DNA of 64,000 bases from positions 10,357,501-10,421,500 of the forward strand of contig NZ_CP069338.1 in the NCBI RefSeq assembly GCF_016859125.1, read 5' to 3'. Origin of the DNA: Archangium violaceum. GTDB taxonomy: Bacteria > Myxococcota > Myxococcia > Myxococcales > Myxococcaceae. A model generated the notes under the pieces. That model saw nothing but the letters and a program-made list of their open reading frames with translations, was not told the DNA's origin and made no database searches. Made by a program: the position numbers and the translations under genes. Shown piece by piece: positions 8,560 to 55,978 of the stretch. The stretch's first letter is position 1. Every line of letters starts with the position of its first letter.

Positions 8560-9518
8560 GCCCTCCTCCCGCCTCGTGGTGGCGGCGCCTCAAGGCCGCC
8601 CTCCGTCCGCCGCGCACCCTCAAGGTGACGCGCATGGGTCGCACGTACCTCGTGGTGACGTTCGGCGTGGGCCTGGGCGCGCTCAACACCGGCAACAACC
8701 TCCTCTACCTGGTGCTCGGGTTGTTGCTCAGCGTCATCATCCTCTCCGGCGTGCTGTCCGAGCGCTGCCTGCGCGACCTGTCGGTGCGGCGCGTGGGCAC
8801 GGACGGAGCGTTCGCGGGAGAGCCCTTCGCCTGCCGTTGGGGAGTCACGCGTGGCAAGGGGCACGCCTTCGCCCTCACCCTGTCCGAGGTGGACTCTCCC
8901 CTCACGGGTGAAGGCGGCGTGGGCTACCTGCCCGCGGGCGCGGAGCACGTGGTGCGGGCCGATCTCACGGCGCCCCGGCGGGGCCCGCTGAAGCTCACGG
9001 GCGTGCGCGTCACCACCACCTGGCCGCTGGGCCTCTTCGCCAAGACGCGCGTCTTCCCGTTGGAGGCCACCCTGCTCGTCTACCCGCGGCGGGGCTTCGC
9101 CTGCGCGGCTCCCGCCGATGTGGCCGTGGGCAACGTGGGCGAGTCCAACAACCCCCACCGGCTGGACGGCACCGGAGACGTGGCGGGACTGCGCGAGCTC
9201 GGCGAGCACGAGGACGCCCGGCGCGTGCACTGGCTGAAGAGCGCCTCGGTGGGCAAGCTCCTCAAGGTGGAGCGCGAGCGCGAGGAGCGCCGCACGTTCT
9301 TCCTCGACGTGCCGTCGGGGCTCGCGGGTGACGCGCTGGAGCGGCGCTGCGAGGAGGTGGCGGAGCAGGCCCACCGGCTGATCGAAGCGGGCCACGAGGT
9401 GGGGCTGGAATTGCCCGGCCACCGGCTGCGTCCGGGCGCGGGCAGCGGGCAGGAGCGCGCCATCCTCCGGGCGCTGGCGTGGTTGGGCTTCGAGGATCAG
9501 CGGGAGGAAGCGGCATGA
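8556..9518 (+). CDS. DUF58-domain membrane protein
   Basis: 320 residues. Two adjacent hydrophobic segments (TYLVVTFGVGLGALNTGNNL and LYLVLGLLLSVIILSGVL) anchor it in the inner membrane. The cytoplasmic part carries the DUF58 core GTGDVAGLRELGEHEDARRV followed by HWLKSASVG. GTG start in the overlap GTGA with the MoxR stop; its own stop overlaps the ATG of the transglutaminase gene. DUF58 proteins resemble VWA folds and are thought to be clients or partners of MoxR ATPases. Function in the cell is not established. Confidence 0.88.
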   Translation: MSPPPASWWRRLKAALRPPRTLKVTRMGRTYLVVTFGVGLGALNTGNNLLYLVLGLLLSVIILSGVLSERCLRDLSVRRVGTDGAFAGEPFACRWGVTRGKGHAFALTLSEVDSPLTGEGGVGYLPAGAEHVVRADLTAPRRGPLKLTGVRVTTTWPLGLFAKTRVFPLEATLLVYPRRGFACAAPADVAVGNVGESNNPHRLDGTGDVAGLRELGEHEDARRVHWLKSASVGKLLKVEREREERRTFFLDVPSGLAGDALERRCEEVAEQAHRLIEAGHEVGLELPGHRLRPGAGSGQERAILRALAWLGFEDQREEAA

Positions 9519-11545
9519 CACGGCCCAACCGGCTGCGGCTGGTGCTGCGAGACCTGGGCACGGGAGCGGCGTTCGCGTCCATGGCCGTGTCCGGCCAGGT
9601 GCCCATCTGGGTGCTCGGGCTCGTCGTGCTCGCGCTGTTCGTGGCGTTGATGGGCCGGCGTCCCTTCGCCCGCGCGCCCCGGCTGACGGCGGTGTTGCTG
9701 GTGCCGGTGGGGGGCGTGCTCTACCTGGCCGTGGCCTCGGGACAGATGGACCTGGTGGTGGCCGCCTGCTCCTTCGCGGGCCTCGTCGCCTCCCAGCGGC
9801 TGCTGTCGGACACCAGCCCCACCACGGACGGACAGGTGCTGCTGGCCGGTCTGTTGATGATCGCCGGCGGCGCGGCGCTCTCCGGTGAGCTGCTCTTCGC
9901 GGTGTGCCTGCTGACCTTCGCGGTGCTGGCGAGCCTCTCGCTGGGTCTGGGCGTGGTGGAGGCGGCCGTGCCTCCGGGCGAGCCCGTGCCGGTACGCCAG
10001 GTGATGCGCCCGCTCGCCATGGGCACCACCCTCGCGATGCTCGGCGCGGTGGCCTTCTTCATCCTCTTCCCGCGCCTCAACTGGAACATGGGCGCGCGCC
10101 GGGCGTCCCCGGGGCTCGGCACGGCCACCACCGGCTTCTCCGACACCGTGCGCCTGGGCGGCTCGGGCACCCTCAAGAGCAACCCCCGCGTGGTGCTGCG
10201 GGCGAAGCTGACGCCCGATCCCGGCGTCGAGCAGCTCGCGTCCTACTGGGTGGGCCGCACCTATGACACCTTCGACGGCCAGGAGTGGTCGACGATCGGC
10301 GCCCCCAACAAGCGCAGCCGCACGCGCGTGACGCTGCGCCGGGGCGCGGAGAAGCAGGTGTACCAGAAGATCGAGCTGCTGCCCGCCTACGGCAGCCGCA
10401 CGCTGATCGCCCTGGAGACGCCCGCCAAGCTGGGCAATGCCCTGACGCACACGGTCACGGGCGACAAGCGCACCCAGCTGCAGGAGCTGGGCGGCGACGA
10501 GCTGCGCTTCGTGGAGCAGGGGCTCGGCTATGCCTACGAGGTGTACAGCGTGCCACCGGGCACGGACGCGGATCCGGGCAAGATGGCCCAGAAGGAGGCG
10601 GACCAGCTCCTGGCCCTGCCGGACAACCTGGATCCCCGCGTGGAGGCGCTGGCCCGGCAGGTGGTGGGCGACGAGAAGGATCCACTGGCCGCGGCCAACA
10701 AGCTGTCGGCCTGGCTGCAGCGCGAGTACCAGTACACGCTCGAGCTGGGCGGGGACGTGGCGGATCCGCTGGTGGACTTCCTGTTCGTGCGCAAGGCGGG
10801 CCACTGCGAGCACTTCGCCTCGGCGCTCACGCTGATGCTGCGCACCCTGGGCTTCGAGACCCGGCTCGCCACGGGCTTCTTCGGCGGCGAGCGCGTGGGA
10901 GGCGAGTACATCGTCCGCGCCGGAGACGCCCACGCATGGACGCACGTGCTGGTGCCCGGACGTGGCTTCGTCACGGTGGACGCCACTCCGCCGGCGTTCC
11001 GCGCCAACCAGTCGCTGCAGCTGCTGGAGTCGCTCATCTCCCTCTACGAGGCCATCGAGTCGGCGTGGCGCGCGTCCGTGGTCGACTACTCCTTCCGCGA
11101 CCAGATGAACTTCATGCGCGATCTGTCGCGTTCGCGGCGCGAGCCGGGCAAGGAGCAGCGAACCCGTCTGCCGCCCCTGCGAGCATGGTTGACGGCGGCG
11201 CTGGTGGGCGCGGCCGTGTACTGGACGTGGAAGAAGCTCTCGCGGCTCAAGCCCCGGACACCGGCCCTGGAGGCCACGCGCTTCGCGGACGCGATGGAGC
11301 GCCAGCTCGCGACGGTGGGCGTGGGCTCGCGCGACGGCGAGACGCTCGAGGATGTGTCCGCACGGCTCACCCGGGAGGCGCATCCGCTGGCGCCCACGGT
11401 GTCACCACTCACGCGCCGCTACCTCGAGGCCCGCTTCGGCCAGCAGCCACTTCAGCCCGGCGAGGCCTCCCGTCTGTTGAAGGACCTCAAACAGGCCGTC
11501 GACTCGCAACGCAAGCAGCAGGCCTCGGGCACTCGCGCCGCGTAG
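9515..11545 (+). CDS. TgpA-type membrane transglutaminase-like protease (DUF3488)
   Basis: 676 residues. The N-terminal half has about six membrane helices (DUF3488/TgpA N-terminal domain). A periplasmic transglutaminase-like domain follows with the Cys-His-Asp triad in KAGHCEHFASALTLML, AGDAHAWTHV and FVTVDATPP. A further membrane segment (LTAALVGAAVYWTWKKL) and a DUF4129-like tail end the protein. TgpA-family proteins are implicated in peptide or cell-wall remodelling; the substrate is unknown. It starts at 9515 in an ATGA overlap with DUF58 and completes the three-gene operon. The predicted architecture is intact, with no missing catalytic residue. Confidence 0.9.
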   Translation: MTRPNRLRLVLRDLGTGAAFASMAVSGQVPIWVLGLVVLALFVALMGRRPFARAPRLTAVLLVPVGGVLYLAVASGQMDLVVAACSFAGLVASQRLLSDTSPTTDGQVLLAGLLMIAGGAALSGELLFAVCLLTFAVLASLSLGLGVVEAAVPPGEPVPVRQVMRPLAMGTTLAMLGAVAFFILFPRLNWNMGARRASPGLGTATTGFSDTVRLGGSGTLKSNPRVVLRAKLTPDPGVEQLASYWVGRTYDTFDGQEWSTIGAPNKRSRTRVTLRRGAEKQVYQKIELLPAYGSRTLIALETPAKLGNALTHTVTGDKRTQLQELGGDELRFVEQGLGYAYEVYSVPPGTDADPGKMAQKEADQLLALPDNLDPRVEALARQVVGDEKDPLAAANKLSAWLQREYQYTLELGGDVADPLVDFLFVRKAGHCEHFASALTLMLRTLGFETRLATGFFGGERVGGEYIVRAGDAHAWTHVLVPGRGFVTVDATPPAFRANQSLQLLESLISLYEAIESAWRASVVDYSFRDQMNFMRDLSRSRREPGKEQRTRLPPLRAWLTAALVGAAVYWTWKKLSRLKPRTPALEATRFADAMERQLATVGVGSRDGETLEDVSARLTREAHPLAPTVSPLTRRYLEARFGQQPLQPGEASRLLKDLKQAVDSQRKQQASGTRAA

Positions 11546-11860
11546 CGCCCTGACGAGCCCACGCCCCTTCGCCAGCCCTCCAGCGGTGCGCCAACGTGCC
11601 GCTCGCAGGGGATGCGCGGCCTCCTTATTACCCGTTGGGACGAAGGGAGGCGATCACCTCCCTCCCACGAAGCCCTGACCGCGAGTCCAATGGCGATCGG
11701 GGCCCCAGGAGGCCATTTGAGGACAGAGGCGAATTATTTACTTCCTCAATTCCCCGGTGGAGCCGCTCCAGACCTGTAACCCTTACGGGTTTCCTTCCAC
11801 CGTCGTGCGGTCGCATCGGCCAAGTATGCGTTGCGACTGGAGAAATCCCGCGAGGGGGCG
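11546..11860 (+). other. Intergenic region upstream of the sigma-factor promoter
   Basis: About 315 bases without a convincing gene. It is less GC-rich than its surroundings (for example GAGGCGAATTATTTACTTCC near 11730). It contains a small hairpin GGAGG-CGATCA-CCTCC near 11647-11662 and an inverted repeat AACCC-TTAC-GGGTT at 11778-11791. The latter lies about 70-83 bases upstream of the sigma-54 -24 element, a usual distance for enhancer-binding-protein sites. Its function is inference only. Confidence 0.4.
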
Positions 11861-11876
11861 TGGCACATCGGTTGCT
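11861..11876 (+). promoter_or_regulatory. Sigma-54 promoter of the RpoH-like sigma gene
   Basis: TGGCACATCGGTTGCT is a full match to TGGCAC-N5-TTGCW, with the GG and GC dinucleotides ten bases apart. Transcription would begin near 11887, about 70 bases before the ATG at 11956. It lies in the correct orientation in the gap upstream of the sigma gene, with a palindrome at 11778-11791 as a possible activator site. Confidence 0.75.
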
Positions 11877-11955
11877 CTAGGCACCCTTCATCTAGTTGTC
11901 ACGAGGTTCAAACCTCTTCTCACCGGCCTCGGCGCGAGGCCACTCGGGAGAACCC

Positions 11956-12846
<891 letters not shown>

Positions 12847-12973
12847 GCCACACGGGTCCCCAGAATCGCGTCCGGGGGGACGCACCACCGAGGCGCTTCC
12901 ACACCGGCGAGGAGTGGAGGCTCCTTGGTTTTTGCTACAAGGGCCGGGTTCCCGCACCACGTGAGGAGTTCCC

Positions 12974-15445
12974 GTGTCCCACGGCCAACCGCCGATCTCC
13001 GAGGACCGCGTCCCCATCGCCCAGGCCTCCCAGCCCCACCCCCACAAGCCCTATGTGCCCGCGACCGAGTCACGCCCGGAGTTGACGGTGCGCGGGCTGG
13101 TGCTGGGCTCGGTGCTGGGCATCATCTTCGGTGCCTCGTCGGTGTACCTGGCGGTGAAGGTGGGCCTGACGGTGTCCGCCTCCATCCCGGTGGCGGTGCT
13201 GTCCATCGCCATCTTCCGGGCGCTGGGCCGCTCCAACATCCTGGAGAACACGATCGTCCAGACGGTGGGCTCGGCCGGCGAGTCGCTCGCCTTCGGAGTG
13301 GCCGCGGCGCTGCCCGCCCTGCTGCTGCTCGGCTACGACATCGATCTCTTCCACGCCTTCCTGGTGGCGTCGCTCGGCGGAGTGCTGGGTGTGCTGATGA
13401 TGATTCCCCTGCGCGACGGGCTCATCGTCCAGGAGCACGGCAGGCTCACCTACCCGGAAGGTACCGCCGCGGCGGACGTGCTCGTCGTCGGCGAGGAGGG
13501 AGGGACGAACGCGCGCACGGTCATCCTCGGCTTCTCGGTGGGCGGGTTCTACAAGTTCGCCTACGCGGGCCTGCACCTCTTCAAGGAGGTGGTGGGCACG
13601 GCGCTGAGCCAGGTGAAGACGACGGCGGCCGGGCTGGCGCAGCGGGTGGGCTACGCGGGCGGCTCCATCTCCATGGAGGTGAGCCCGGAGCTGCTCGGCG
13701 TGGGCTACATCATCGGCCCGAAGGTGGCGGCCATCACCTTCGCGGGCGGCGTGCTCAGCTACCTCATCCTGATTCCCCTCATCACCTTCTTCGGCAGCGG
13801 CCTGGAGCAACCGCTCCTGCGGCCGGACGGCATGCTCATCCGGGACATGGATCCGGACACGGTGCGCGACGCGTACGTGCTGTACATCGGCGCGGGCGCG
13901 GTGGCCACCGGAGGGCTCGTCAGCCTCATCCGCTCGCTCCCCACCATCATCAGTGCCTTCCAGCGCGGGCTGGGCACCCTCCTCGCCTCGCGGCGCAAGG
14001 AGGCGGGGCCGGTGATGCTGCGCACCGAGCAGGATCTGCCCATCACGGTGGTGCTGGTGGGCAGCGCGCTGCTCGTGCTGGCCATCTGGCTGGCGCCCCC
14101 GCTGCACGTCAACTTCGTGTCCTCGTTGCTCATCGTGGTGTGCGGCTTCTTCTTCGTGACGGTGAGCGCCCGCATCACGGGGGAGATCGGCTCCTCGTCC
14201 AACCCCATCTCCGGCATGGTGGTGGCCACGCTGCTCATCACCTGCCTCGTGTACCTGATGCTGGGGTGGACGAGCTCCGAGGACCGCTTCATGGCGCTCA
14301 CCACGGCGGCCATCGTGGGCATCGCGGCCTCCAACGGAGGCACCACGGCGCAGGACCTGAAGACGGCCTTCCTGGTGGGAGGCACGCCCCGGCGGCAGCA
14401 GCTCGCCCTCTTCGTGGGCGTGCTCACCAGCGCGCTGCTCATCGGCCTGGTGCTGGTGGTGCTCAACCGGGGCGCCACCACCATCATCCCCGAGACGCAC
14501 CCGGGCCAGACGGTGAGCGTCGTCGGCGACCAGACGCGCACGCAGCACACGTACCCCTGGGCGGTTTCGGAGCAGGCCCTGTTGGCGAGGGGCGTGAAGC
14601 TCGCGGAGCTGGAGGGCCCGCTGTGGAGGCAGGGGCTCGAGGTGGCGCAGGGGCCGGGCGGCGCTCCCGAGCTGCGCAGCTGGAACGCGCTGCCGGTGGA
14701 GCGCGTGGCGGGCACGGACGTGCGGCTGCCCTCGGGGCAGACGGTGAAGGTGTCCGAGCTGGGCGCGGTGACGCCGGGCCCCGAGCGCACCTGGCGGGTG
14801 GGCTACGTCCGGGGCGCGGACACCCCGGTGCCCACGGGCACGTACCTGGTGGATGACGCGGGGGCCATCCACTACCTGGTGGATCCGGGCATCGGCGGGC
14901 GCATCACCAGCTACGAGGGGCAGACGCTCACCCGCTACCCCGCCCCCAAGGCGCAGCTCTTCGCCCTCATCATCGACGGCATCCTCACGCGCAAGCTGCC
15001 GTGGGATCTGGTGCTGGTGGGCGTCTTCATCGCGTTGATGCTCGAGCTGTGCGGCGTGTCCTCGCTGCCCTTCGCGGTGGGCGTGTACCTGCCCATCTCC
15101 AGCAGCGCCCCCATCTTCGTGGGCGGCATGGTGCGCTACGTGGTGGACCGGGTGCGCGGGGGCACCGCCGCCGAGTCCGAGTTCTCCCCCGGCACCCTGC
15201 TCTCCTCGGGCTACATCGCCGGTGGCGCCATCGCGGGCGTGCTCATCGCCTTCCTGGAGATCGCCAGCGACGGGGCCTGGACGCGCGCCATCGACATCCC
15301 CGAGCGGCTCGGCGACACGACCTTCTCGCGCTTCCTGCAGGAGTCGGATCTCTGGGGCCTGGGTGTCTTCGCCATCCTCGCCGTCCTGCTGCTGCGCACC
15401 GGCCTTGAGGGCGAGAGCGGCGCACAGGCCCGGCCCGCGAAGTAG
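12974..15445 (+). CDS. OPT-family oligopeptide/metal-chelate transporter
   Basis: 823 residues with about 14-16 membrane segments. Family features include NILENTIVQTVGSAGESLAFG, LTYPEGTAAADVLVVGEEGG and ASNGGTTAQDLKTAFLVGG. OPT proteins are inner-membrane proton-coupled importers of oligopeptides or metal-chelators. A hydrophilic insert of roughly 130 residues (about 510-650) separates the N- and C-terminal membrane blocks; it probably forms a periplasmic or cytoplasmic domain. Start at GTG 12974 with GAGGAG eight bases upstream. It follows the sigma gene by 127 bases on the same strand but probably has its own promoter. Confidence 0.88.
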   Translation: MSHGQPPISEDRVPIAQASQPHPHKPYVPATESRPELTVRGLVLGSVLGIIFGASSVYLAVKVGLTVSASIPVAVLSIAIFRALGRSNILENTIVQTVGSAGESLAFGVAAALPALLLLGYDIDLFHAFLVASLGGVLGVLMMIPLRDGLIVQEHGRLTYPEGTAAADVLVVGEEGGTNARTVILGFSVGGFYKFAYAGLHLFKEVVGTALSQVKTTAAGLAQRVGYAGGSISMEVSPELLGVGYIIGPKVAAITFAGGVLSYLILIPLITFFGSGLEQPLLRPDGMLIRDMDPDTVRDAYVLYIGAGAVATGGLVSLIRSLPTIISAFQRGLGTLLASRRKEAGPVMLRTEQDLPITVVLVGSALLVLAIWLAPPLHVNFVSSLLIVVCGFFFVTVSARITGEIGSSSNPISGMVVATLLITCLVYLMLGWTSSEDRFMALTTAAIVGIAASNGGTTAQDLKTAFLVGGTPRRQQLALFVGVLTSALLIGLVLVVLNRGATTIIPETHPGQTVSVVGDQTRTQHTYPWAVSEQALLARGVKLAELEGPLWRQGLEVAQGPGGAPELRSWNALPVERVAGTDVRLPSGQTVKVSELGAVTPGPERTWRVGYVRGADTPVPTGTYLVDDAGAIHYLVDPGIGGRITSYEGQTLTRYPAPKAQLFALIIDGILTRKLPWDLVLVGVFIALMLELCGVSSLPFAVGVYLPISSSAPIFVGGMVRYVVDRVRGGTAAESEFSPGTLLSSGYIAGGAIAGVLIAFLEIASDGAWTRAIDIPERLGDTTFSRFLQESDLWGLGVFAILAVLLLRTGLEGESGAQARPAK

Positions 15446-54535: not shown

Positions 54536-55978
<1,443 letters not shown>

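Follow-up and report, generated by a model that had tools for sequence, protein, structure and literature searches.

A conserved sigma-54 promoter box ahead of an RpoH-like sigma factor gene, the likely sigB orthologue, in Archangium violaceum

The sigma factor locus and its upstream box

Within the 64-kb stretch of A. violaceum DNA that we analysed as a whole (the window), a gene for a 296-residue sigma factor lies between a gene for a TgpA-type transglutaminase and one for an OPT-family oligopeptide transporter (Table 1). The transglutaminase belongs to a MoxR-DUF58-transglutaminase cluster, in which the DUF58 label is our own assumption for a protein that had no Pfam match, and the gene order with the OPT transporter is identical in Myxococcus xanthus AM003 (locus L016). 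Sigma-70 regions 1.2, 2 and 4 were found in the sigma protein, together with a 10-residue stretch resembling what we take to be the RpoH box. Because the protein scored above the cut-off of the sigma-32 subfamily HMM NF005143 (318.3 bits versus 241) and just below that of the RpoH equivalog TIGR02392 (318.4 bits versus 323.1), it is assigned by these profiles as RpoH-like rather than as RpoH proper, which is also how the original prediction had described it.

Table 1. Features of the sigma factor locus (positions in the window)
Feature	Position	Strand	Remarks
TgpA-type transglutaminase gene, upstream neighbour	9479..11545	+	3' end about 410 bases from the sigma ATG
Conserved dyad GTAACCCTTAC, GTAAC-N-GTTAC (family consensus GTAACNGTTAC)	11776..11786		centre at about -106 from the predicted start
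Sigma-54 (-24/-12) promoter box TGGCACATCGGTTGCT	11861..11876	+	GG at 11862-11863, GC at 11874-11875
Predicted transcription start	11887	+	12 bases past the C of the -12 GC, as expected from standard sigma-54 geometry
5'-leader hairpin GGCCTCG-GCG-CGAGGCC	11925..11941	+	directly 5' of the ribosome-binding site
Probable Shine-Dalgarno GGGAG	11946..11950	+	
Gene for the 296-aa RpoH-subfamily sigma factor, likely sigB (MXAN_3357) orthologue	11956..12846	+	
Terminator-like stem-loop and T-run	12908..12927	+	3' of the sigma gene
OPT-family oligopeptide transporter gene, downstream neighbour	12974..15445	+	

The box TGGCACATCGGTTGCT falls within the sigma-54 consensus TGGCAC-N5-TTGCW, with 10 bases separating its GG and GC doublets, and the ATG of the sigma gene follows 79 bases after its end. 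Re-reading the window confirmed the sequence, coordinates, strand and GG-N10-GC spacing with which this box had been proposed. It is the only exact TGGCACN5TTGCW site in the window. Over the 12.68 Mb of the genome, the counts are 10 for this pattern and 5 for the pattern in reversed letter order, from which about 0.03-0.05 would be expected in a window of this size. A single rpoN gene and about 59 enhancer-binding-protein genes that match Sigma54_activat well are present in the genome, so that both of the components that a sigma-54 promoter requires are encoded.

The stem-loop located 3' of the sigma gene speaks for a transcript of this gene only, although shuffles yield 0.8 sites of this kind by chance. 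On the 5' side, a G+C-rich leader hairpin of 6-7 bp was seen in most orthologues (loci L002-L028), ending 14-21 bases before the ATG and with base pairs altered on both sides of the stem in L002 (GGCCCCG/CGGGGTC) and in L007 (AGCCTC/GAGGCT); taken singly, these hairpins are scarcely stronger than in shuffles. Folding of the alignment was discarded as a source of RNA structure, the hairpin having been misregistered by the aligner and only the promoter box being paired, and hairpins were therefore listed sequence by sequence.

Conservation of the box at orthologues and paralogues

The pattern TGGCA[CT]N5TTGCT is kept in all 27 orthologues for which upstream sequence was available (named genomes and MAGs), at 64-114 bases from the ATG, and it is also intact in 30 of 30 loci that were fetched separately from the whole-genome set, the two samples sharing species in part. 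The box, whose presence in related genomes had been suggested as a check and whose absence from close relatives would have counted against it, was thus missing from none of these loci. For each of the 27 upstream regions, the observed box score was reached by 0 of 300 shuffles. The fixed positions are invariant in the alignment except for the sixth (C/T), while the mean identity of the intergenic region is only 52% across all 28 sequences and 46% across 15 representatives, and the 16-base window covering the box ranks first of 245 (all sequences) or second of 245 (representatives) for conservation. This pattern indicates that the box is under selection in the orthologues.

The genome has a second copy of this clade, a paralogue 76% identical to the window protein, and a second perfect site (TGGCACCCGTATTGCT) lies 68 bases ahead of its ATG. 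In M. xanthus, the box at sigC is a weaker variant (TGGCACGTGGGTCGCA). Across the order, a perfect box or a one-to-two-base variant is present at most clade members whose identity is about 66% or higher, mostly as CGGCAC-N5-TTGCT at the Anaeromyxobacter loci, and no box was found upstream of the members L063, L072 and L074. Upstream scores were no better than those of shuffles for the more distant RpoH-like genes and the RpoD gene of the same genome (L084-L087). The box is therefore present at both paralogues and absent at the other RpoH-like genes.

A perfect site is also found ahead of the actA/actB homologue of the same genome (L096), which served as a positive control: the M. xanthus actB promoter TGGCACA-N4-TTGCT, whose -24 and -12 regions were characterised by mutation, is of the sigma-54 type (PMC9765219), and the Myxococcus actA/actB homologues carry TGGCACAGCCATTGCT. 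Two more perfect sites look promoter-like, one before gspC (L093), adjoining an enhancer-binding-protein gene, and one at the start of an opgG homologue (L097). Conservation and the match to the actB promoter together support the proposal that the box is a sigma-54 promoter placed ahead of another sigma factor gene. The window box is the same as in the actB, nla28 and pilA sigma-54 promoters of M. xanthus, and the actA/actB homologue accounts for one of the ten perfect sites in its own genome. However, the targets of those promoters are enhancer-binding proteins and pili, and several lie inside genes and have Nla28 half-sites, whereas the predicted promoter of the window is intergenic, shows no excess of Nla28 half-sites and would drive a sigma factor gene.

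Probable assignment to sigB and the developmental context

M. xanthus has the sigma-32-like developmental factors SigB, SigC and SigE, and its orthologue of the window gene at L016 encodes a protein with 93% identity to the window protein. To assign the gene among these, we used its chromosome position relative to actA. In the single-contig genome G136, where the box is the same as in L016, 174.7 kb separate the actA homologue (at 3,757,878) from the sigma orthologue (at 3,932,586), and the corresponding distance is 144.6 kb in genome G121; these values were set against the 144 locus numbers from MXAN_3213 to MXAN_3357. The assignment of actA in both genomes is supported because these loci carry TGGCACAGCCATTGCT, which matches the published actB promoter. 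By this position, the window gene is most likely the orthologue of MXAN_3357 (sigB) and the 76% paralogue is probably that of sigC, the evidence being positional rather than drawn from the published SigB sequence. The first description of sigB reportedly gave a shorter protein.

The sigC gene has a divergent upstream neighbour (PMC4320627), and so does the 76% paralogue in most of the Myxococcus loci examined. The gene upstream of the window gene runs in the same direction as it does, which ruled out sigC as its identity. Elimination had first pointed to sigE, which the positional test led us to abandon in favour of sigB.

During glycerol-induced sporulation of M. xanthus, early induction of rpoN is followed by that of sigB (50-fold) and sigC (140-fold) (PMC2875238); rpoN also rises during starvation development (PMC6791715). 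The title of the first sigB paper (cited via PMC2875238) terms the gene development-specific. These timings, with rpoN preceding sigB and sigC, fit the order of control proposed below, short of proving it. The developmental relevance guessed in the original prediction likewise agrees with the likely orthology to sigB, a late-development sigma factor.

Candidate activator site and the proposed relay

The start of a conserved dyad is located 85 or 87 bases upstream of the box in almost all orthologues possessing it. The palindrome that had been proposed at 11778-11791 (AACCC-TTAC-GGGTT) does exist, but it is out of register with this dyad and was rejected as it is not conserved in relatives. GTAACNSTTACNG occurs only once in the genome, at the sigma locus, and GTAACNGTTACNG was found in four of nine genomes, there solely in front of the sigma orthologue. 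By a strict pattern, 5 of 30 orthologues, two of them from the same genus, have a degenerate dyad or none, and the dyad was sought at the sigC paralogue and at other clade members and not found there. We consider it as a candidate activator site; for a sigma-54 promoter, such a site would be expected about 80-150 bases ahead of the start, and the centre of the dyad is at about -106 from the predicted one. Its half-site GTAAC resembles the half-site of TyrR-like enhancer-binding proteins, GcsR among them (TGTAACG-N4-CGTTCCG; PMC4894688), but the spacing differs, so that the likeness may serve as a lead only. Nla28 was rejected as the activator, its half-sites not exceeding chance in the window, L016 or L090. 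The sole enhancer-binding-protein gene of the window lies at 55052-55549 on the minus strand, at a distance of 42 kb from that of the sigma factor. A second stretch of conserved sequence (CGCCAACCCC) intervenes between dyad and box; it reads CG(C/T)CAACCCC in most relatives and GGCCAAG in the window (about 11817-11826) and is possibly the site of a further regulator.

Judging from the sequence evidence, we consider it highly probable that 11861-11876 is a working sigma-54 promoter of the sigB orthologue, opened by an activator and feeding development, and that the same applies to sigC. Sigma-54 RNA polymerase would bind the -24/-12 box and wait there as a closed complex, which an enhancer-binding protein, probably located at or near the GTAAC-N-GTTAC dyad some 106 bases upstream of the predicted start, would open using ATP. 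This activator would be triggered by a development or stress signal, and the RpoH-like sigma factor that is then made would direct late-differentiation genes, with a developmental timing that we presume for A. violaceum. Since sigC has the same promoter type, sigma-54 would feed both paralogues.

An origin of the box by chance, or its persistence as a functionless fossil, appears extremely improbable. Perfect sites do occur where no promoter role is obvious, such as the one located inside a gene (L095), even if intragenic sigma-54 promoters reported in M. xanthus (PMC9765219) make intragenic sites ambiguous. A functionless box would nevertheless have drifted, whereas this one is invariant in all the orthologous loci of both samples, recurs as the same type at the paralogue and was matched by no shuffle of any of the 27 regions; its invariance while the flanking intergenic DNA diverged rules out this explanation as far as sequence allows. 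A more serious alternative, possible if rather doubtful in our opinion, is that the sigma-54 promoter is real but minor and provides a condition-specific boost, while the main promoter is of a myxobacterial sigma-70 type, ECF-dependent or MrpC/FruA-dependent. The sigma-54 box of enteric rpoH is found among several promoters and net expression is little altered in the absence of rpoN (PMC3844500), MrpC binding reported near sigC (PMC4320627) means that other inputs exist, and the second conserved element is located between dyad and box in most relatives. Against it, no sigma-70-like site was detected in 11400-13000 in a scan that used the E. coli consensus, and with all orthologues included no block of the intergenic region is better conserved than the box.

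The RpoH-like factor may also act in heat or general stress, the sigma-54 link then serving a stress-sensing enhancer-binding protein rather than development, and we regard this as unlikely. Such a role would suit a protein placed in the sigma-32 subfamily by NF005143 (318 bits versus 241) and a clade whose members and boxes are spread over many families of the order, among which Anaeromyxobacter is, to our knowledge, not noted for fruiting. The first sigB paper, whose title designates the gene as development-specific, argues instead for a developmental role.

A relay of the kind proposed here, from sigma-54 to a second sigma factor, is already known in other bacteria. In Borrelia burgdorferi, sigma-54 and the enhancer-binding protein Rrp2 drive transcription of RpoS, a sigma-70-family factor in charge of a life-stage programme (PMC11109971). 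As in that cascade, a sigma-54 promoter is predicted ahead of a gene for a sigma-70-family factor in the window, but the Borrelia cascade targets RpoS instead of an RpoH-like factor and operates in an unrelated organism, where the activator, Rrp2, is known. The enteric rpoH genes of E. coli (Janaszak et al. 2007) and Salmonella (TGGCACGGTTGTTGCT; PMC3844500) have a near-identical sigma-54 box before an rpoH-type gene. There, the box is one of several heat-shock-factor promoters and has little net activity, while no E. coli-type sigma-70 site was seen at the window gene, which, unlike enteric rpoH, is a member of a developmental clade of myxobacteria whose two paralogues share this wiring. We found no statement of sigma-54 control of sigB or sigC in the open-access papers searched, among which the original sigB and sigC papers do not figure; given the Borrelia and enteric precedents, novelty would concern sigB and sigC, subject to prior reports that may exist.

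The main interest lies in the order-wide conservation of the box at two paralogues. M. xanthus development is usually attributed to cascades of enhancer-binding proteins and of MrpC/FruA, rather than to sigma factor cascades (PMC2875238), and if sigB and sigC each have a conserved sigma-54 promoter, this would join the enhancer-binding-protein and sigma factor layers. Sigma-54 control, if confirmed, would also offer a testable reason for the late induction of both genes, and the box ahead of sigB suggests a handover between regulators in fruiting-body development. We see about even chances for a broader version of this relay, spanning the order, in which an ancestral RpoH-like gene driven by sigma-54 would have been duplicated along with its promoter to give sigB and sigC. 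Each copy would be tuned by an activator of its own, that of sigB being dedicated and acting at GTAAC-N-GTTAC, and sporulation regulons of the sigma-70 family would take over control from the cascade of enhancer-binding proteins. The locus-specific dyad could be used in the search for the activator, with GTAACGGTTAC as the capture sequence.

Some observations concern related loci. Of the distant Myxococcota, at 46-55% identity, L160 alone has a perfect box where a promoter could lie, 71 bases before the start of an RpoH-like gene of 47% identity, and this may reflect either an older wiring or an independent gain. At L149, the match is partial and weaker and extends over the start codon. Four sigC-type leaders (L034, L045, L050 and L056) contain a CUCU...AGAG hairpin about 25 bases before the start, which overlaps the probable Shine-Dalgarno GAGAG and could thereby hide the ribosome site. 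Finally, a record titled Comamonas sp. KCTC 72670 carries Myxococcaceae-type sigB and sigC (L024 and L047, at 91% and 75% identity) and looks mislabelled.
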